Below are positions 1,000 through 42,987 of a DNA stretch of 42,987 bases, piece after piece; position 1 is the first letter of the stretch; each line of letters begins with the position of its first letter. The notes beneath the pieces were generated by a model that saw only the letters and a program-made list of their open reading frames with translations, was not told the DNA's origin and ran no database searches. Position numbers and translations under genes: made by a program. The DNA is from Candidatus Zixiibacteriota bacterium (GTDB lineage Bacteria; Zixibacteria; MSB-5A5; UBA10806): contig CP070813.1 in the NCBI GenBank assembly GCA_020344055.1, forward strand, positions 1,151,648-1,194,634. Direction: 5' to 3'.

Positions 1000-3804
1000 A
1001 TGTCTACGAAGGACGAAACCAGAATGAGCTTGCCGCGACTTATCGGGATATTCCTGCTATTGACGCTTTGTTCCGGATTCTCACACGCGCAATCGGTCGA
1101 CGATTGCATGATGTGCCATGAGGACGGTGAGCTCACCAAAAAGAGAAACGGGAAGACAATATCCTTATATGTGAACCTGGACAAATATACGAAATCCGCG
1201 CACGGCGACCTCGAATGCGTCGATTGCCACGCGGATCTGGCGAGCTTCGAGGATTATCCCCATGATGAAAACCTGGAAATCGTCGACTGCGGAATATGCC
1301 ATGAAGACATCGCCGAAACCTATAAAGGCAGCCTTCACGGAAAAGAGGCGGCCCGGGGAGTCGAGTTGGCCCCCGGATGCTGGGATTGCCACGGTAAACA
1401 TGATATAATACCTCACGATTCGCCCGATTCCCGAGTGACCAAGTTTAATATCCCCTATATGTGCGGCGAATGCCATAAAGAGGGCAGCGAGGTTACCCGA
1501 CGGTATAACATACCTCAAGATAGCATCTTAACGCATTATTCGCTAAGTATTCACGGCGAGGGACTGTTTCATAAGGGATTGACCGTGACCGCGGTCTGCA
1601 CCGATTGTCATACCGCCCATAATGTTCTCCCTCATACCGATAAGAATTCCTCGATTCACAAGGATAACGTTGCCAAAACCTGCCAGAAATGCCATGGCCA
1701 GATCGAGGCCGTGCACAAGAAGGTGATCAGGGGCGAGTTATGGGAAAAGGAACCGAACAAAATCCCCATATGCATAGACTGTCATGCCCCTCACACCATA
1801 CGAAAAATATTTTACGAGCTGGGGATGTCCGATCGAGATTGCCTGGATTGCCACGCCAAAAAAGAGCTGAAAACCGTCCGCGACGGCAGGGAGATATCTC
1901 TTTTTATAGACAGCATCGAGCTCAACAGTTCCGCTCATAGAGCCGAGGCCTGCGTGAGATGTCACACCGGGGTCAATCCCTTGATGAAGAGACCCTGCGC
2001 GCCTATCACGGGGGAGGTTGATTGTTCCATATGTCACGCCGAAGTCGTGTCGATGTATGACAGCGGAATTCACGGCCGTCTTGCTGCCAGGGGAGATCCC
2101 AACGCTCCCGTCTGTCTCGATTGTCATGGCAAACACGGCGTCAGGAAACATATCGATTCCAAATCTCCCACCTATCCCACCAACGTTCCGGATTTGTGCG
2201 GGCGGTGTCATAAGGAAGGAAGCAAGGCCGCCATCAGATACGACGGCAAGCAACACGATATTCTCAAAAATTACGTCATGAGCATTCACGGAAAGGGTCT
2301 GCTCGAGAGCGGTCTGGTGGTGACGGCCATGTGCACCGACTGCCATACGGCACACCACGTTCTTCCCGAAGATGACCCGGAATCGAGCGTTCATCGTGAA
2401 AATATCCCCCGTACATGCGCCACATGCCACAACGGAATTTACGAAACTTACATTACCAGCATTCATTTCAGCGACGAAGAATATGATCCGAAAAGATCCC
2501 TTCCCATGTGCGATGATTGTCACTCTTCCCACACCATCGCGAGAACCGACCAGGAGAATTTCAAATTAAACATAATTAACCAGTGCGGGCGCTGCCACGA
2601 GGAGGTAACGGGATCGTACTTCGAGACCTTTCACGGCAAGGTCTCCAAGCTGGGCTATACCGCCGCCGCCAAATGCTACGATTGCCATGGGGCCCACGAC
2701 GTTCTCCCGACGTGGAATCCCAGGTCCAGGCTTTCCCGCCAGAATATAGTGGAGACCTGCGGGCAGTGTCACAAGGGCTCGCACCGGCAGTTCGCGGGTT
2801 ATCTGACACATGCCACGCATCATGATCGGGATAAGTACCCGTTCCTTTTTTATACATTCTGGTTCATGACCATCTTGCTGCTTGTCACTTTCAGCATTTT
2901 CGGCGCGCATACCCTGCTCTGGCTCCCCAGATCCTTGAAAGAACGGAAAAAATACAAAAGATTGCCGCACAAACCCCGCGAAAAGGTATACCTGAGATTC
3001 GGACGAATACACCGCCGGCTTCATATACTGGTAATCGTCAGTTTCCTCGGTCTGGCCATTACCGGGATGACCCTGAAATTCTCCTATATCTGGTGGGCCC
3101 AGCTGATCTCCAACTTCCTGGGGGGATTCGAATCGGCGGGATATATCCACAGAATTTGCGCGGTCATTACATTTTTCTATTTCGGTACACATATTATCTT
3201 TCTTTTCAGGGATAAGAGGCAAAAAAAGGTCAGTTGGCGTCAATATCTATTCAATAAAAACTCCATGTTGCCCAACGGAAACGATCTCAAGGAAGCCTGG
3301 CAAACCCTTAAATGGTTCATAGGACTGGGCTCGAGACCGCATTACGGCAGATATACCTACTGGGAAAAGTTCGACTATTTCGCGGTATTCTGGGGAGTCG
3401 CCATTATCGGTTCCACCGGTTTGATCCTCTGGTTCCCCGAATTCTTCACGTACTTTTTGCCCGGCTGGTTCATCAACGTCGCCACCATTATTCACAGCGA
3501 CGAGGCTCTCCTGGCGGTCGGTTTTATATTCACGGTCCATTTCTTCAACACCCATTTCAGGCCCGACAGATTCCCCATGGACACGGTTATATTCACCGGA
3601 CGGATACCGGTTGAGGAATTGAAAATAGATCGTCCTCGCGAATACGACGAGATAATCAAATCCGGAAGCCTCCAGGACAAATTGGTGGAGCCCCTGCCGC
3701 CGGTTGTTGTTAAAGGATTGAGGATTTTCGGCGCGGCCGCCCTGACTATCGGAATAATCCTGATTTTGCTTATAATCTGGGCCGAGATTTTCGGATATCG
3801 TTAA
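1000..3804 (+). CDS. 19-heme cytochrome c / cytochrome b fusion protein
   Basis: The 934-aa protein has a signal peptide (hydrophobic run at 11-29, likely cleavage after SHAQ), then 19 CxxCH heme-binding motifs between residues 36 and 591, then a membrane domain from about residue 613 with about six helices and conserved histidines (IHRRLHIL, GYIHRI, GTHIIF, IIHSDEA, VHFFNTHF) typical of diheme cytochrome b. The heme part is an internal duplication. Motifs 1-8 (36-262) and 9-16 (281-508) match in order and spacing, and motifs 17-19 (529-591) form a third partial block like the end of the upstream gene. The likely role is quinol-linked periplasmic or extracellular electron transfer; the acceptor cannot be told from sequence. 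An alternative start is ATG 1024, which has AAGGA 10 bp upstream and gives a more usual signal peptide. Confidence 0.9.
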   Translation: MSTKDETRMSLPRLIGIFLLLTLCSGFSHAQSVDDCMMCHEDGELTKKRNGKTISLYVNLDKYTKSAHGDLECVDCHADLASFEDYPHDENLEIVDCGICHEDIAETYKGSLHGKEAARGVELAPGCWDCHGKHDIIPHDSPDSRVTKFNIPYMCGECHKEGSEVTRRYNIPQDSILTHYSLSIHGEGLFHKGLTVTAVCTDCHTAHNVLPHTDKNSSIHKDNVAKTCQKCHGQIEAVHKKVIRGELWEKEPNKIPICIDCHAPHTIRKIFYELGMSDRDCLDCHAKKELKTVRDGREISLFIDSIELNSSAHRAEACVRCHTGVNPLMKRPCAPITGEVDCSICHAEVVSMYDSGIHGRLAARGDPNAPVCLDCHGKHGVRKHIDSKSPTYPTNVPDLCGRCHKEGSKAAIRYDGKQHDILKNYVMSIHGKGLLESGLVVTAMCTDCHTAHHVLPEDDPESSVHRENIPRTCATCHNGIYETYITSIHFSDEEYDPKRSLPMCDDCHSSHTIARTDQENFKLNIINQCGRCHEEVTGSYFETFHGKVSKLGYTAAAKCYDCHGAHDVLPTWNPRSRLSRQNIVETCGQCHKGSHRQFAGYLTHATHHDRDKYPFLFYTFWFMTILLLVTFSIFGAHTLLWLPRSLKERKKYKRLPHKPREKVYLRFGRIHRRLHILVIVSFLGLAITGMTLKFSYIWWAQLISNFLGGFESAGYIHRICAVITFFYFGTHIIFLFRDKRQKKVSWRQYLFNKNSMLPNGNDLKEAWQTLKWFIGLGSRPHYGRYTYWEKFDYFAVFWGVAIIGSTGLILWFPEFFTYFLPGWFINVATIIHSDEALLAVGFIFTVHFFNTHFRPDRFPMDTVIFTGRIPVEELKIDRPREYDEIIKSGSLQDKLVEPLPPVVVKGLRIFGAAALTIGIILILLIIWAEIFGYR

Positions 3805-10177: not shown

Positions 10178-12448
10178 ATGAGGATAAAGTTGATTGTGGT
10201 GATGTTTATAATTCTCGCTCTGGCGGCAAATACCTTTGCCCAGAAGATTGTAAGCAGGGAGGACTTTCGCAACTCCGAATGGCGGATGAAAAGCGAATAT
10301 TATAAGAAATTGCTGGAAAGAAACGGGGGTAGCGTAGCTCTGGATCAATCCGATTACGACGTAAAATACTGGGAACTCGATGTCGATGTCACCAATATCA
10401 TCGGTCAGATTATTTACGGCAAAGTAACCATGACCTCCGAAAGCATGGTAAACGGCCTTACTACAGTCGACTACGATTTTCATAGCAATATGACGGTCGA
10501 TTCGGCATTTATGGGCGGCAATACGGTATCATATACAAGACCGAACCATCTTATCAGGGTAACTCTCGATAGGGCGTATGATGAGGGCGAGCAATTCACC
10601 ACGGTTATTTATTATCACGGTCATCCCCCGGGCGGGAATTGGGGTTCGTTTACGTGGGGTCAGCATAACGGGCAACCGATTATCTCGACCCTGTCGGAGC
10701 CGGAAGGAGCCCGCGAATGGTGGCCCTGTAAAGATATGCCTCATGATAAATCCGATTCCTCCGACGTTTATATAACAGTACCGGATAACCTGGTGGCAAC
10801 ATCCAACGGCCGCCTGGTAAGCAATAATAATAACGGTAACGGCACCCGCACGTTTCACTGGCAAAATTCCTATCCCATCACGACTTATCTGATATCGCTG
10901 GCCATTTCCAACTACCAGAGTTTCACAGATTGGTATGTCAATACCGGCGGCGATTCCATGCCGATAGTGAATTATGTCTATCCCGAGCATTACAACCAGG
11001 CGGTCGAGGATTTGAACATCATCCCCCAGGCCATAGGCATATTTGCGGACATGTTCGGAGAGTATCCCTTTATCAATGAAAAATACGGGCATTCCATATT
11101 CGCCTGGGGCGGCGCCATGGAACACCAGTGCAACACCAGTTACGGCTCCATGCTAATAACGGGAGGCCATGACTACGATTGGATAGCGGTTCATGAGCTC
11201 GCCCATATGTGGTTCGGGGATCTGATAACCTGCGATACCTGGCCGAATATATGGACGAACGAGGGTTTCGCGTCATACCTCGAAGCCCTCTGGACGGAGG
11301 AACTCCTTGGACACGCGGCCTACCTGAATTATATGAGGATCAGCAATGGAGTACTATACCCCAGCGGCCCGATTTACGATCCCTGGCCCCTCTTCGATGG
11401 CAATACCGTTTACAACAAGGGTTCCTGGATTTTACATATGCTCCGGGGCGTTATGGGTGACGAGACGTTTTTTGACGCCATGTACGGCTACGCCAACCAT
11501 CCCGATCACATGTACGGAACAATCACCACCCAGCAGTTCCAGGCCATTATGGAGCAGTATTACGGCGCCTCTCTCACCTGGTATTTCCAGCAATGGCTGT
11601 GGGGAGTAAACCGCCCGACCTATCAATATTCCTGGATGGCGGAGAATATCGGCGGCGGTCAGTACGAGCTTTTCCTGCATATAGACCAGGTGCAGGTACC
11701 GCCGACTCCTACGGTTTTCACGATGCCGATCAAAATTTACCCGAGGATAGGCGGTGTCGACACCTTGGTTACTGTTTGGAACGACAGCCGCGAGGACGAT
11801 TTCCGAATCGTTTTAGACGGCAATCCTACTATGGTTCGATTCGATATTGACGATTGGGTGCTTAAATTCGCGAGTCAGACATCTTATACCATGAATATTG
11901 TGACTACGGAATTGCCTGACGGCGATCCCGGAGAACCCTATTCCGAGGTAATCGAGGCCCGCGGTGGAAACGGGCAGTATACATTCACGCTGTATAACGG
12001 CAGCCTTCCCGACGGTTTGACCCTCGATGAGAACACCGGCGTCATAAGCGGCACTCCCGTGGCTGAGGGAGTTTATGATTTCACCATCCGCTGCACCGAT
12101 ACGACCCCCTATACCGATGACCAGGAATATACTGTAATTATCGGCGTTATAGTCGATACCGAGGAGGATGAGCCCCCGCAACCATGGCAGTTCGCCCTGA
12201 TAGGGAACTATCCCAATCCCTTCAATAATTCGACAATATTAAAGTTCAGGCTGGCCGAGGAATTGCCGGTAAGACTCGATATCTACAATCTCCAGGGCCA
12301 GAAAGTCGAAAGCCTGGTTGACGGTGTTTTGGGCGCGGGCGCGCACGAGGTTATCTGGAAGGCCGGTTCCGTGGCATCGGGCGTATATTTCTACAGATTG
12401 GACGTTGGAAGCAGCAGCTCTGTCAAGAAAATGACTTTGATTAAATAA
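10178..12448 (+). CDS. Secreted M1 family metallo-aminopeptidase with T9SS-type sorting domain
   Basis: The 756-aa protein begins with a signal peptide (1-21, cleavage near TFAQ). The M1 domain spans about 50-480, with the substrate motif GGAMEHQ (311-317; usually GAMEN), the zinc motif HELAH (339-343), the third zinc ligand Glu362 in NEGFASY, and Tyr412 of the YxKG motif, so it should be active and remove N-terminal residues from peptides. An Ig/cadherin-like putative-Ig module (about 578-658, containing LPDGLTLDENTGVISGTP) follows. A C-terminal domain of about 80 aa starts at NYPNPFN and ends GVYFYRLDVG ... MTLIK, the type A sorting signal of the type IX secretion system. It is probably exported to the surface or medium. 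It has its own promoter and a strong terminator. Confidence 0.93.
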   Translation: MRIKLIVVMFIILALAANTFAQKIVSREDFRNSEWRMKSEYYKKLLERNGGSVALDQSDYDVKYWELDVDVTNIIGQIIYGKVTMTSESMVNGLTTVDYDFHSNMTVDSAFMGGNTVSYTRPNHLIRVTLDRAYDEGEQFTTVIYYHGHPPGGNWGSFTWGQHNGQPIISTLSEPEGAREWWPCKDMPHDKSDSSDVYITVPDNLVATSNGRLVSNNNNGNGTRTFHWQNSYPITTYLISLAISNYQSFTDWYVNTGGDSMPIVNYVYPEHYNQAVEDLNIIPQAIGIFADMFGEYPFINEKYGHSIFAWGGAMEHQCNTSYGSMLITGGHDYDWIAVHELAHMWFGDLITCDTWPNIWTNEGFASYLEALWTEELLGHAAYLNYMRISNGVLYPSGPIYDPWPLFDGNTVYNKGSWILHMLRGVMGDETFFDAMYGYANHPDHMYGTITTQQFQAIMEQYYGASLTWYFQQWLWGVNRPTYQYSWMAENIGGGQYELFLHIDQVQVPPTPTVFTMPIKIYPRIGGVDTLVTVWNDSREDDFRIVLDGNPTMVRFDIDDWVLKFASQTSYTMNIVTTELPDGDPGEPYSEVIEARGGNGQYTFTLYNGSLPDGLTLDENTGVISGTPVAEGVYDFTIRCTDTTPYTDDQEYTVIIGVIVDTEEDEPPQPWQFALIGNYPNPFNNSTILKFRLAEELPVRLDIYNLQGQKVESLVDGVLGAGAHEVIWKAGSVASGVYFYRLDVGSSSSVKKMTLIK

Positions 12449-37554: not shown

Positions 37555-40206
37555 ATGAAGAAACTGCTTTTGCTTATTATTCTATTATTAATATTCAATT
37601 TTGCAGGATATTCTTATGGTCAAAATATATCGTTGATTAGCATATTCGATACCCCGGGAGAGGCGCACGATGTCAGGCTGCTTGGCAACTACGCGTTTAT
37701 CGCCGATAGCGGCAACGGGTTATCAATAGTCGATGTATCCGATCCCCTGAATCCCACGCTTGCCGGCAATTGCCCCACATGGGGACAACACTTGAGCGTT
37801 GCCGTCGAAAGCGGATACGCCTACATAGCTGCCACCCACAACCTGCAGATCTTTGATATATCCGATTATTCTAACCCAATTCCGGTCGGCTCGTTAACCA
37901 CACCCGAAGACGCCATTGATGTTTTTGTAGAGCGCGATTATGCTTATGTATGTGATAGAGGAAATCCCTTCACGAGCGGTTTAATTATAATCGATATTTC
38001 GGATAAAACCAATCCGGTAATATCAGGTTCATGTGGCACCAATTTTATCGGCGGAATATATGTCAGGGGTGACTACGCCTACATTGCTGCTGATGAGAGG
38101 GGTTTGGATGAGGAGGGTTTTAAGGTTATTGACGTGTTAGATCGATCCAATCCTTTTATTGCCTGCGAAATCACTATCCCGTCGCCTATACCGTACGGAA
38201 GAAACAATACTTACGAGGTCTTTATAAAGGACAATTACGCCTACCTGGCTACAAGGATCGGGGGATTGCGAATTATCGATATTTCCGATCCATATAATGC
38301 CTTCCATGTAGAAACGCATTATTACCGTCGTAACACCCACGATGTTTACGTATCCGGCGACTATGCCTACATCTCCAGTCAATATGATGACGGTCTGGCG
38401 ATATTCGATATCAGTTCTCCGGTAAATCCTCATTGGGCGGGAATATACGATGCCTATCTCGGCATAACCGGGCTCTGTGCCCGTGATAGTCTGATTTTTG
38501 TTGCCGCAGACAGCTTTTATATTTTCGAATTTGCGCCTGCTCTGGGAAGTGTTTCAGGTACGGTTCTGGATGCCGATAACAATATGCCGATCGGCGGTGC
38601 AACGATATTGGCTTTTCCAAGCGCGGTTTCAGGCGTGTCGGGGTCGGCCGGGGAATATATAATCGAAAATCTTCACAATTTTACTTATGATTTAATATTC
38701 TCCCATCCCAATTATTTCGATACCACCGTAAGCGACGTTCATATATTGGAAGATGATACTATAGAGGTCTCTGTCGGAATGATTCATCGACCTGTCGTTG
38801 ACGCGGGAGTTTCAGGCATCTTGGATATCCCCTATCCCTTTGTGCAGGGAAGAGAATACGCTTTGAAGTCGGAGGTGAATAATTACGGTTATACTGCTCA
38901 ATCGATATATTTTGTCTATGAAGTCTACTACTCAGGATCAATATACCCGGAGATAGCCGACACCATTTATATTTCAAACATGCCCGGAGGAAGCAGGGAC
39001 ACACTATTGTTCCCCACCACCTTTATACCGCTGCCGGAAACCACGTGCATCCTAATTTCATACTCTGTTCTGGCAGGGGATGAGGATCCCACAAACGATA
39101 CCACGGTAATGCAGGTGGAGAGTATATACGATTATTATATATTTTTCGGGGATCCCCATGGCGCTCCATTAGAAGCGAATATCGGCTCAATTCTTGAAAT
39201 GACGGTATGGGGAGCGACCCCATTGAATTTAGATCAAAACGGGGACGGCATCGTCGATTCGGTCCTTTTTATGTTTATCCCTCTGGCCTCCCCGGATTCA
39301 ATTATATCCTATCGGTACCCATCATGGGATCCGCAGGACACGCTGCCCGCTCATTCATATTTCCCTTTTTATCCCCTAAATGAATGGGACGCTGTTACCG
39401 TGGAGCCGGAAGTGATAGGTTCACCGGAACCGGGCTGGACTACTCAGCCTATGATTGGCTGGGCGGAAGTTCATGGGCCATATGGCGATACTCCTTTTTT
39501 TAATTCAATGGCCGATACTATGCCGCTATTCATATTTGCGATGCAGACTGCGATGGATACAACTCTGCTGGGCCAACAACTCGATCCTTTTCAGGAGGGT
39601 TATTACCCGGGGATCGGCGAGACCTTTTGGGGTATACAGGACGGGATCACGACTATTTATCCGGCAGGGTATTACAGCGGTTTGAGGTTTTATTCGGAAT
39701 CCGAGCTCGGCTATGTTATGGGCACCGTCACCGATACCGGCGGCTCGCCTGCGGACGATGCGGTCGTCAGCCTTTTGGACGCTTTCCGGGAGGACACCAC
39801 TGATCTTTCGGGAGATTATTATCTCCCGTGGATTACTCCCGGAATCTACTCATTAGAATTTTATCATCCGGATTACGGATCTGCTTTCGTAAACGATGTT
39901 GAAGTCTGGGCCGGAGACACAACGGTTGTCGATTTCCAGCTTATCGGGGGATGCGAATATCTGCCCGGCGACGCCAACGGCGATGATAATAAAAATGGCG
40001 TAGATGTTACCTATTTGGTCGCTTATTTTAAAGGCGGTCCTCGCCCGCCGGATCAATGCGACTGCCCGCCACATGGCATAATCTATACTGCGGCAGACGC
40101 CGACGGGAGCTGCGCCACGAACGGCCTGGACGTCACCTACATGGTCTCATACTTCAAGGGCGGCCCGCGGATACTATATTGCGCCGATTGCCCGCCGTAT
40201 GAATAA
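37555..40206 (+). CDS. Giant modular secreted protein: LVIVD beta-propeller, CARDB, cohesin-like, dockerin-like
   Basis: The 883-aa protein has a signal peptide (1-23, cleavage near SYGQ). Residues 26-330 form seven blades of LVIVD type, each with an AYIA and (I/V)FDISDxxNP motif. Residues 331-410 are a carboxypeptidase regulatory-like fold (GSVSGTVLDADNNMPIGGA), 412-522 CARDB-like, 528-712 a beta-rich module that begins IFFGDPHG and resembles a cohesin, 718-795 a second regulatory-like fold (ELGYVMGTVTDTGG), and 804-883 a pair of dockerin-like calcium loops (DANGDDNKNGVD and DADGSCATNGLD) with six cysteines. It should be exported and bind surfaces or partner proteins. ATG 37555 is chosen over TTG 37543 because it leads directly into the signal peptide. 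Confidence 0.88.
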   Translation: MKKLLLLIILLLIFNFAGYSYGQNISLISIFDTPGEAHDVRLLGNYAFIADSGNGLSIVDVSDPLNPTLAGNCPTWGQHLSVAVESGYAYIAATHNLQIFDISDYSNPIPVGSLTTPEDAIDVFVERDYAYVCDRGNPFTSGLIIIDISDKTNPVISGSCGTNFIGGIYVRGDYAYIAADERGLDEEGFKVIDVLDRSNPFIACEITIPSPIPYGRNNTYEVFIKDNYAYLATRIGGLRIIDISDPYNAFHVETHYYRRNTHDVYVSGDYAYISSQYDDGLAIFDISSPVNPHWAGIYDAYLGITGLCARDSLIFVAADSFYIFEFAPALGSVSGTVLDADNNMPIGGATILAFPSAVSGVSGSAGEYIIENLHNFTYDLIFSHPNYFDTTVSDVHILEDDTIEVSVGMIHRPVVDAGVSGILDIPYPFVQGREYALKSEVNNYGYTAQSIYFVYEVYYSGSIYPEIADTIYISNMPGGSRDTLLFPTTFIPLPETTCILISYSVLAGDEDPTNDTTVMQVESIYDYYIFFGDPHGAPLEANIGSILEMTVWGATPLNLDQNGDGIVDSVLFMFIPLASPDSIISYRYPSWDPQDTLPAHSYFPFYPLNEWDAVTVEPEVIGSPEPGWTTQPMIGWAEVHGPYGDTPFFNSMADTMPLFIFAMQTAMDTTLLGQQLDPFQEGYYPGIGETFWGIQDGITTIYPAGYYSGLRFYSESELGYVMGTVTDTGGSPADDAVVSLLDAFREDTTDLSGDYYLPWITPGIYSLEFYHPDYGSAFVNDVEVWAGDTTVVDFQLIGGCEYLPGDANGDDNKNGVDVTYLVAYFKGGPRPPDQCDCPPHGIIYTAADADGSCATNGLDVTYMVSYFKGGPRILYCADCPPYE

Positions 40207-40234
40207 TGGTGTCAGATTATAATCAGGGATCGAT

Positions 40235-40275
40235 AGATCAAGGGTTATGTTGTTTTTGTAAATGACAATTAACAT
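40235..40275 (+). repeat. Shared 41-bp upstream element, copy 2
   Basis: It matches copy 1 at 37363-37403 in 36 of 41 positions and is followed 15 bp later by TTGACA (40291-40296). It lies 113 bp before the ATG of the second modular gene. Confidence 0.7.
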
Positions 40276-40356
40276 CTAACGAGGTTACTATTGACAAGAG
40301 ACATCATAATTATTTTATTCTTGATGCACAACTGAATGGCATCTTCGTATTGAAAA

Positions 40357-40362
40357 TATAAT
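40357..40362 (+). promoter_or_regulatory. Possible -10 box of the second modular gene
   Basis: A perfect TATAAT lies 26 bp before the ATG, but no good -35 box is at 16-18 bp; the upstream TTGACA (40291) is too far. GGAGG at 40380-40384 is the ribosome site. Confidence 0.4.
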
Positions 40363-40388
40363 AGGGTTGTTATTAACCTGGAGGAATC

Positions 40389-42987
40389 ATGAAAAGCGTT
40401 TATATTTTAGTTCTGATATTCGCGTTAAGCCCGGTGGTATCGGCCCAACTCGACCATGACGTCGGCGTATCGGCCATCATCAGCCCGCCCGAAACGACGA
40501 ATATCTTTTTGAATCATCCCGTTAGTATCGAAATAACGAACTTTGGCCAAAATTCCGAATCATTTAATGTATATTGCGAGATATATTTTGCCGATTCCAC
40601 GGCCATTACATTCTATGATATTCTTGCAGTAAATAATCTTGCCCCCGGCGAGGTCGACACCGTTACAAGTTGGGCTGAATTTTCAATCAGGAGTATTTAT
40701 GGACCTGAATGGATCAAGAATTTTTACGAATATGATATTTTTTCTTATTCTGACCTGGCAGGTGACCAAAATCCACAAAACGATACCACATACCAAAGAA
40801 TGGTATTTGTCAATGAATCATTTTTAATATTTGGAGATAAGGATGGCCTGCCCGTCCAAGTAAACATCGGATCCATAATCGAAATCCCGGTTTGGGGAGG
40901 AACCCCCTCGGAAAATAACATTGATTCCATTTGTTTCGTTCACATTCCCGTGGCTTCAGATGATTCTATAATTGCCTTAAGATACCCAAGCATAGAAATG
41001 GATCCGCTGGATACATTGCCAGTACATTCTTATTTCCCCGATACGTTGATCGGACTCTGGGATGCCAGGTTTTTCTATGATCCCGCTCCTGATACTCATT
41101 TCGTCGATTGGACAGTTCAGGGTATCCTCGGATTCGCGTATCTGGGCGGCGATCCCAACGAACCGTTACTGACCAATGGTGATACTGTTTTGATTGGCAC
41201 TTATGTTATGAAAACCATTTTTGATTCAACCTTGATGGGGCAAACTATATTTCCATTGCAAAACGGTTTTTCAATATTGGATGGTGGGTTGCTCTGGGGT
41301 TTTTGGGACGGTATCACCTGCGTTATTCCGAATGCCTCCTATAACCCATTAAGATTTCTTTCGTACGACGAACTCGGCTATGTAATGGGAACCGTCACCG
41401 ATACCAGCGGCTCGCCTGTGGACGAGGCGGTCGTCAGCCTTGTGGACGCTTTCAGAGTGGACACCACCGATCTTTCAGGAGAATATTATCTTTCATGGAT
41501 CACTCCCGGTATATATACGATGGAATTTTACCATCCCGATTACGGCTCAGCCTTCGTAAACGATGTTGAGATAACCGCGGGGGATACGACAGTAATTGAC
41601 TATGTTATTACCGATCACGACGTCGGCGTATCGGCCATTATCAGCCCGCCGGATACAACCAATATCTTCAAACATCACCCGATCACGTTCGAGGTAAATA
41701 ATTACGGTACGTCCGTCGAATCATTTGACGTGATCTTCGAAATCTATATAGCTGATTCTACGGGTATATCCTTTGCGGATACGGTGGAAGTTATTAACCT
41801 GGGGGCTGGCGCCGCAGATACTCTGAGCGGTTCAAAAAAGTTTTCAATTATTACCCTATACCCGGCGTTGTTTAACTTTTATGAATACGACGTTATCGCT
41901 TACTCTACTCTATCCAGCGATGAAAATTCCCAGAATGACACCGCCTATGGAGAAATTGTTTTCCTAACGGAATCATTTTTTATTGTGGGAGGCCACGATG
42001 GCTTTCCTTTTGACGTTAATATAGGATCTATAATTGAGATTCCGATTTGGGGTGGAACGCCGCCGGGCAATGATAGAGATACAGTAGATTTTATGCATAT
42101 TCCCATGTCTTCCAGTGATTCGCTGATTGACTTCAGATATCCGAGTATAGAGATGGATCCGCTGGATACATTATTGGCGCATTCATATTTTGCAGATTTG
42201 ACTTTAGGGCCCTGGGATGAACATTACTTCGATTATTCCAGACCGGATACATCACCTTACTGGACAGTCCAAAGTATAATCGCGTACCGCGATCTTGCCG
42301 GCGGACCAAATCCGCCAATTTTTACAATGGGCGATACGGTTTTATTCGCAACTTGTGTTATAAAAACAATATTTGATTCTACACTCATGGGTAATATACA
42401 TTATGCTTTTCAAAATGGTCTTGATCCCGTATATGGATTTTTACATTGGGGCTTAATTGATGGCGTGACGCCGATATACCCCAATTCATCATATGGCCCC
42501 ATCCGCTTCATGACGGCGGACGAACTTGGCTATGTCATGGGAATTGTCACAGATACCAGCGGCTTGCCCACGGACGAGGCGATCGTCAGCCTCATCGACG
42601 CTTTCAGGGAGGATACCACCGATATTTCGGGCGAATATTATCTCCCGTGGATTACGCCCGGCACCTATTCCATGGAATTTTATCATCCGGATTACGGATC
42701 GGCCTTTGTAAACGACGTTGAAGTTTTGGCTGGAGACACGACCATCGTCGATTTCCAGCTGGGCGGGGGATGCGACTATCTGCCCGGCGACGCCAACGGC
42801 GATGATAATACCAATGGCCTCGATGTTACCTATTTGGTTGCCTATTTTAAAGGCGGTTCTCCCCCGCCGGATCAATGCGATTGCCCACCGCATGGCATAA
42901 TCTATGCTGCGGCAGATGCTAACGGTAGCTGCGCCACGAACGGCCTGGACGTCACCTACATGGTCTCATACTTCAAGGGCGGCCCGC
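40389..42987 (+). CDS. Giant modular secreted protein with twin CARDB/cohesin-like modules and dockerin-like end, 3' partial
   Basis: An uninterrupted frame runs from ATG 40389 (GGAGG 4 bp upstream) to the window end: 866 codons without a stop. The protein starts with a signal peptide (MKSVYILVLIFALSPVVSAQ). Two tandem modules follow (40452-41612 and 41613-42758, about 385 aa each). Each has a CARDB-like part starting DHDVGVSAIISPP, a cohesin-like part (FGDKDGLPVQVNIGSIIEIP and GGHDGFPFDVNIGSIIEIP) and a regulatory-like fold (ELGYVMGTVTDTSG). The visible end is a pair of dockerin-like loops (DANGDDNTNGLD, DANGSCATNGLD). Its last modules closely match those of the previous gene. The stop codon is expected soon after the window edge. 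Confidence 0.92.
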   Translation, partial: MKSVYILVLIFALSPVVSAQLDHDVGVSAIISPPETTNIFLNHPVSIEITNFGQNSESFNVYCEIYFADSTAITFYDILAVNNLAPGEVDTVTSWAEFSIRSIYGPEWIKNFYEYDIFSYSDLAGDQNPQNDTTYQRMVFVNESFLIFGDKDGLPVQVNIGSIIEIPVWGGTPSENNIDSICFVHIPVASDDSIIALRYPSIEMDPLDTLPVHSYFPDTLIGLWDARFFYDPAPDTHFVDWTVQGILGFAYLGGDPNEPLLTNGDTVLIGTYVMKTIFDSTLMGQTIFPLQNGFSILDGGLLWGFWDGITCVIPNASYNPLRFLSYDELGYVMGTVTDTSGSPVDEAVVSLVDAFRVDTTDLSGEYYLSWITPGIYTMEFYHPDYGSAFVNDVEITAGDTTVIDYVITDHDVGVSAIISPPDTTNIFKHHPITFEVNNYGTSVESFDVIFEIYIADSTGISFADTVEVINLGAGAADTLSGSKKFSIITLYPALFNFYEYDVIAYSTLSSDENSQNDTAYGEIVFLTESFFIVGGHDGFPFDVNIGSIIEIPIWGGTPPGNDRDTVDFMHIPMSSSDSLIDFRYPSIEMDPLDTLLAHSYFADLTLGPWDEHYFDYSRPDTSPYWTVQSIIAYRDLAGGPNPPIFTMGDTVLFATCVIKTIFDSTLMGNIHYAFQNGLDPVYGFLHWGLIDGVTPIYPNSSYGPIRFMTADELGYVMGIVTDTSGLPTDEAIVSLIDAFREDTTDISGEYYLPWITPGTYSMEFYHPDYGSAFVNDVEVLAGDTTIVDFQLGGGCDYLPGDANGDDNTNGLDVTYLVAYFKGGSPPPDQCDCPPHGIIYAAADANGSCATNGLDVTYMVSYFKGGP
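40452..42758 (+). repeat. Two tandem protein-coding module repeats of about 1.15 kb
   Basis: 40452-41612 and 41613-42758 encode the same order of CARDB-like, cohesin-like and regulatory-like modules. The segments SIEMDPLDTL, TIFDSTLMG and FYHPDYGSAFVNDVE recur in both copies and, in part, in the preceding gene. Confidence 0.85.

Follow-up and report, generated by a model that had tools for sequence, protein, structure and literature searches.

Cohesin-dockerin pairs are among the strongest protein plugs known and have become a tool of biotechnology. In one described arrangement, the C-terminus of CipA from Clostridium (Acetivibrio) thermocellum (PDB 4fl4, 3kcp), a cohesin fold, an Ig-like module and a dockerin follow one another on a single chain. 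Cohesin and dockerin modules also occur outside cellulose degradation (Peer et al. 2009, as cited in PMC9012536), and the portion of PMC9012536 drawn on here describes chains of ANME archaea that carry a dockerin together with up to five cohesins. Candidatus Stygibacter (Cloacimonadota) has been reported to encode dockerin-tailed peptidases, among them C25 peptidases, and a scaffoldin that ends in a sorting domain (PMC8542988), and a non-cellulosomal cohesin of Archaeoglobus fulgidus is represented by a PDB entry titled cohesin (2xdh). Among the papers searched, none connects Zixibacteria with dockerins.

The stretch of DNA analysed here (the window) comprises 42,987 nt of Candidatus Zixiibacteriota (GCA_020344055.1, CP070813.1 positions 1,151,648-1,194,634, forward strand), and it ends with two plus-strand genes whose products are probably secreted adaptor- or scaffoldin-like parts of a non-cellulosomal cohesin-dockerin surface network. 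Gene 1 (37555..40206, best start ATG 37555, stop 40206; 883 aa, from the ORF and Pfam matches) begins with the signal peptide MKKLLLLIILLLIFNFAGYSYG, the hydrophobic character of which is directly visible at the N-terminus, followed by six LVIVD beta-propeller repeats (37654..38532; PF08309, 2.8e-53), a first CarboxypepD_reg domain (38551..38775; PF13715/PF13620), a CARDB-like beta-sandwich (38788..39117) that was recognized from its sequence pattern only and lacks a Pfam match, a predicted cohesin-fold module of about 185 residues that we label X (residues ~523-719; 39121..39711), homologous to the aligned X family (A3) and modelled within its natural chain, a second, Ig-like CarboxypepD_reg domain between X and dockerin (39712..39945; PF13620), and a predicted six-cysteine (6-Cys) dockerin (39949..40203).

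Gene 2 (40389..42987; ATG 40389, 866 aa seen, from the ORF and Pfam matches) is open at the end of the window and encodes a signal peptide, two successive blocks of CARDB-like domain, X and CarboxypepD_reg domain, and a 6-Cys dockerin (42765..42987). Its first X (X1, residues ~141-326; 40809..41366) was assigned by the genome search and the X-family alignment, and the second (X2, residues ~527-710; 41967..42518) was modelled alone; every X copy of both genes is flanked by CARDB-like and CarboxypepD_reg domains. The 3' end of gene 2 is lost in a 100-N assembly gap (G000:C1:1194635-1194734) that starts straight after position 42987, inside the gene, so that the last 11 or so dockerin residues fall into the gap and four dockerin cysteines are visible ahead of it. 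Assembly gaps also interrupt several other dockerin genes of this genome (L152, L165, L166). At the opposite end of the window lies a gene for a 934-aa multihaem cytochrome c (1000-3804, plus strand; CXXCH motifs, cytochrome c3/c7 matches), the C-terminal part of which gave a weak match of cytochrome b561 type.

An earlier note, made from the sequence of the window, had proposed a cohesin-like module in both proteins, and the predicted structure and its matches in the PDB bear this out, with one copy in gene 1 and two in gene 2, where the note had missed a second copy as well as the domains on either side of each. The AlphaFold2 model of X2, built from an alignment of 42 X members (pLDDT 87.6, pTM 0.82), predicts a cohesin jelly-roll fold rather than an unrelated one: in a Foldseek comparison with the PDB, ranks 1-37 are all cohesins (best E 3.6e-5; TM up to 0.70, target-normalised). 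Carbohydrate-binding modules were considered as the nearest fold, and none is present among the 50 PDB matches listed. The X copies of both genes are 36-56% identical to the query module, and profile searches detected 11 matches in this genome and between 5 and 21 in each of eight other genomes of the order.

At the sequence level, X is far removed from described cohesins. Pfam and NCBIfam gave no meaningful family match among the 42 aligned members, 0/42 match PF00963 at E <= 1, and a search of PDB sequences with X gave no meaningful match either. In a profile-profile comparison with the Pfam cohesins of the same genome, X aligned collinearly across 130 columns, with a probability of 6% and an E-value of 0.006. 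Because this evidence for homology is weak, the cohesin call rests on the predicted structure, by which X is a cohesin-fold relative outside PF00963 as presently defined. Iterated searches from cohesin seeds recruit X only after a borderline inclusion (E 0.002 in round 1), and for this reason they were not used as proof of homology. The conservation of X peaks on the strands that match cohesin strands 6 and 3, with means of 0.58 and 0.53 compared with 0.42 overall, the topology having been matched by eye. In known cohesins, these strands belong to the dockerin-binding sheet.

The C-terminal module is, by profile matches and predicted fold, a dockerin. Relative to the curated PF00404 cut-off of 22.9 bits, gene 1 scores below, at 17.4-19.2 bits, and gene 2 scores 19.2 bits when scanned alone and 23.3 bits, above the cut-off, in the genome search. 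Across the family, PF00404 matches 27/30 members at E <= 1 (best 9.3e-7), and a PDB search with the family profile found dockerin chains. When the X-CarboxypepD_reg-dockerin chain of gene 1 was modelled as one piece (pLDDT 90.8), the C-terminus was predicted to form two loop-helix units, with helices at 293-303 and 335-345 of the model, each following a calcium loop. Two such loops at both C-termini had been claimed beforehand, and they are indeed present, as DANGDDNKNGVD (residues 806-817) and DADGSCATNGLD (848-859) in gene 1 and as DANGDDNTNGLD and DANGSCATNGLD in gene 2; shuffled sequences contained two loops in 0/2000 cases for gene 1 and 3/2000 for gene 2.

The claim that six cysteines surround the loops is right in number for gene 1 (residues 800, 835, 837, 853, 876 and 879); however, the wording is not quite exact, because C853 sits within loop 2, at position 6. 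The same pattern recurs throughout the genome. Among 82 full-length copies, D occupies positions 1 and 12 of both loops without exception, N occupies position 3 in 79/82 and 81/82 copies in the two loops, nearly all copies have N or D at positions 3 and 9, and C is found at position 6 of loop 2 in 82/82. Six cysteines are present in 43 copies and eight in 29, which bears out the earlier description of these modules as unlike classic dockerins (72/82 with six or eight); classic type I dockerins are without conserved cysteines. The even number of cysteines suggests disulfide pairing, and the loops would be expected to bind calcium. Thus, the module is a cysteine-rich dockerin subtype.

How, then, does this locus compare with the described systems? 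When the gene 1 chain was compared with the PDB by Foldseek, the top four matches were all CipA Coh9-X-DocII (E 8.4e-12 to 5e-11), and in the alignment, the second CarboxypepD_reg domain of gene 1 occupies the place of CipA's own X module; cohesin fold, Ig-like module and dockerin thus stand in a common order. The two differ in sequence (about 12% identity), in the cysteine-rich dockerin found here, in its occurrence in a T9SS-bearing bacterium, and in the proteins that carry dockerins, which are peptidases and propellers, with no glycoside hydrolase seen. The A. fulgidus cohesin shares the fold (rank 47 for the gene 1 chain) and belongs to other proteins of another lineage. The likeness to Stygibacter lies in a non-clostridial candidate phylum, a T9SS-anchored cohesin scaffold and dockerin-tailed peptidases; there, the cohesins and dockerins are standard annotated ones, whereas here a new cohesin-fold family is predicted and cysteine-rich dockerins are found on about 97 carriers. 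The ANME proteins are alike in combining up to five cohesins with a dockerin outside cellulose degradation, but they are archaeal, and the portion of PMC9012536 drawn on here does not describe a cysteine-rich dockerin or an undetected cohesin family.

The genome-wide search for further copies yielded 102 dockerin-type matches in addition to the 11 X matches, numbers too high within one genome for either module to be a chance finding. The dockerins are distributed over 97 ORFs, which were read as separate genome stretches, and 82 of the modules are full length. They are nearly always terminal (the tail beyond the module is at most 37 residues long in 78/82) and very uniform in sequence across otherwise unrelated proteins, which include M14, C25, M1 and S41 peptidases, an esterase, a peptidyl-arginine deiminase, serine hydrolases of beta-lactamase fold, propellers, FG-GAP proteins and beta-helix proteins. 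Glycoside hydrolases were found neither among the 25 most frequent Pfam families in 57 dockerin proteins, a list that stops short of 34 rarer ones, nor in 40 proteins read singly, and Zixibacteria are not known as cellulosome builders. The placement of these proteins in a non-cellulosomal lineage by the earlier note is thus upheld, and a cellulosome reading was set aside because no glycoside hydrolase was seen among the dockerin proteins examined.

The same genome encodes the SprA translocon, at least 150 T9SS C-terminal tails and 13 Pfam cohesin matches. Among the C-termini of 20 cohesin carriers are 13 T9SS tails and four dockerins, with three carriers having neither, and some X carriers bear a T9SS tail together with both X and a Pfam-type cohesin. 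The T9SS C-terminal domain was found in 0/97 dockerin carriers, a lone regular-expression match (L120) falling on the letters PNPF within the linker of its dockerin, and Por_Secre_tail and TIGR04183 gave no match in the two window proteins, of which gene 1 ends in the dockerin and gene 2 in the dockerin followed by the gap.

It should be noted that one cluster of cohesin genes (G000:C1:2692500-2700200; L094 4506-12780) is possibly a receptor locus. It encodes three proteins of about 280 aa with a single cohesin and a T9SS tail, a 707-aa protein with three cohesins, an internal plain dockerin and a T9SS tail, a 737-aa protein combining X, a cohesin and a T9SS tail, and a 265-aa protein with a cohesin and a dockerin. 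Elsewhere, a 177-aa cohesin (L096 5517-6047, minus strand) has a lipobox-like N-terminus (LIFGC) and is possibly anchored as a lipoprotein. In addition, an X carrier (ORF L102_-_4875, L102) and two dockerin-like proteins (L149 230-1351 and 2909-3994, minus strand) end in PTLNEWG followed by a hydrophobic helix, and this IPTL-CTERM-like end may mark a third route by which the genome sorts proteins through their C-termini.

The comparison of related enzymes has revealed that dockerins and T9SS tails replace each other as C-terminal ends. In this genus, the M14 carboxypeptidase carries a 6-Cys dockerin at its end, while its orthologues in other families of the class, at 52-63% identity, terminate in a T9SS tail; more distant relatives have T9SS tails in other members of this order and plain, mostly cysteine-free dockerins in other families. 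Similarly, of four related C25 peptidases within this genome, one has a T9SS tail (match at 3095279) and three have a dockerin. Since the ends of both enzymes differ between relatives, dockerin and T9SS tail are interchangeable on the same enzymes. The window itself encodes an M1 peptidase with an Ig domain and a T9SS C-terminal domain (10178-12448, plus strand), and an M1-family match also exists among the dockerin-tailed proteins, another possible tail exchange. T9SS tails fix proteins at the cell surface, as established for Bacteroidetes, and the simplest reading is therefore that the dockerin does so as well, via a cohesin that is itself T9SS-anchored.

In a survey of 132 Zixibacteria genomes, X and a strong 6-Cys dockerin (best E < 1e-25) were found together in 9/9 genomes of one order and in 0/123 others, one of which has a marginal X match. 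Because this co-occurrence is clade-wide, it counts as one event and may reflect shared descent; X number correlates with dockerin number over the nine genomes (rho 0.72), with genome size as a confounder. Pfam cohesins, in contrast, are phylum-wide (105/132). In a contig search with strict patterns, all 77 loci with named relatives of the 6-Cys dockerin belonged to Zixibacteria, and the contig search gave no match to X in a wider range of hosts. In a sister genome of the same genus (G115, L093 1388-6064), five tandem X modules are followed by a cysteine-rich dockerin in a protein that also bears FG-GAP repeats and CarboxypepD_reg domains, and a scaffoldin analogue is the easiest reading of this protein. 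Several cohesins, as judged by predicted fold, on one secreted chain with a dockerin or an anchor, the mark of a scaffoldin, are thus found in gene 2 (two X) and in the sister protein (five X).

These observations can be arranged into a mechanism, the steps of which remain conditional. Once exported by Sec, the dockerin would become a stable plug through disulfide bonding and the uptake of calcium, the crossing of the outer membrane by proteins without a T9SS tail being a presumed step. The plug would then dock on a surface-exposed cohesin, for which candidate receptors exist, mostly on T9SS-anchored proteins, and the dockerin would be a C-terminal address used in place of the T9SS sorting domain, so that dockerin-tailed proteins would be located at the surface. 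The X modules of a docked chain, judging from their fold, could offer sites to other dockerin-tailed proteins, with peptidases, propellers, beta-helix proteins and FG-GAP proteins as candidate clients. X or the Pfam-type cohesins would have to bind 6-Cys dockerins, and as X is rare (11 matches) relative to about 97 dockerin carriers, most of the binding may fall to Pfam-type cohesins or to other receptors.

An alternative, which we regard as rather unlikely yet worth serious attention, assigns all binding of the 6-Cys dockerin to Pfam-type, T9SS-anchored cohesins and makes X a carbohydrate or peptide binder or a rigid spacer. The far wider spread of cohesins than of X in the phylum, the many X modules that stand beside a Pfam-type cohesin in T9SS proteins and the divergence of X beyond any profile match are in line with this, and the cohesin-fold superfamily also includes carbohydrate-binding modules. 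Against it speak the occurrence of X exactly where the 6-Cys dockerin occurs, the peak of conservation on the presumptive dockerin-binding sheet and the lack of carbohydrate-binding modules among the 50 PDB matches listed. An improbable reading, albeit one that accounts for a single C-terminal copy that is never combined with a T9SS tail, is swapped for such tails in orthologues and is very uniform on unrelated proteins, is that the dockerin is no cohesin ligand at all and acts, like the T9SS C-terminal domain, as the sorting signal of an unknown export or anchoring machine; against this, both the profile matches and the predicted fold mark the module as a dockerin, the genome encodes many cohesins, and plain dockerins occupy the equivalent position in sister lineages.

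The least probable of the alternatives is the head-to-tail fibre proposed in the earlier note, in which each molecule would hold, through its X, the dockerin of its neighbour. The two window proteins, and 18/45 X carriers seen, do have X and dockerin on a single chain, but about 97 similar dockerins would compete for one site, and in CipA and other adaptor scaffoldins, the cohesins and the dockerin of one chain differ in specificity, which avoids self-binding. Capture on T9SS-anchored cohesins fits the genome-wide distribution better than a self-binding fibre. An extension of this preferred reading, which is put forward tentatively and is less likely than not to hold, is an order-wide plug-in display of as many as some 100 kinds of secreted proteins per genome, in which disulfide-stapled dockerins replace T9SS domains, T9SS-anchored receptors include the new cohesin family, and multi-X proteins serve as hubs.

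New here are a predicted family of cohesin-fold modules beyond PF00963, a dockerin subtype rich in cysteine and present on about 97 proteins, and dockerins that replace T9SS tails. Current domain libraries do not detect the cohesin-fold family, which, with the cysteine-rich dockerin as its candidate partner, would yield a novel orthogonal pair. Because the same enzymes can end in either a dockerin or a T9SS tail, the role of non-cellulosomal dockerins becomes directly testable, and these dockerins may be surface addresses rather than couplers of cellulases. If the order-wide plug-in display exists, it would represent an unusually large cohesin-dockerin surface network that serves purposes other than plant fibre, and would give a surface built by the T9SS a second means of decoration.
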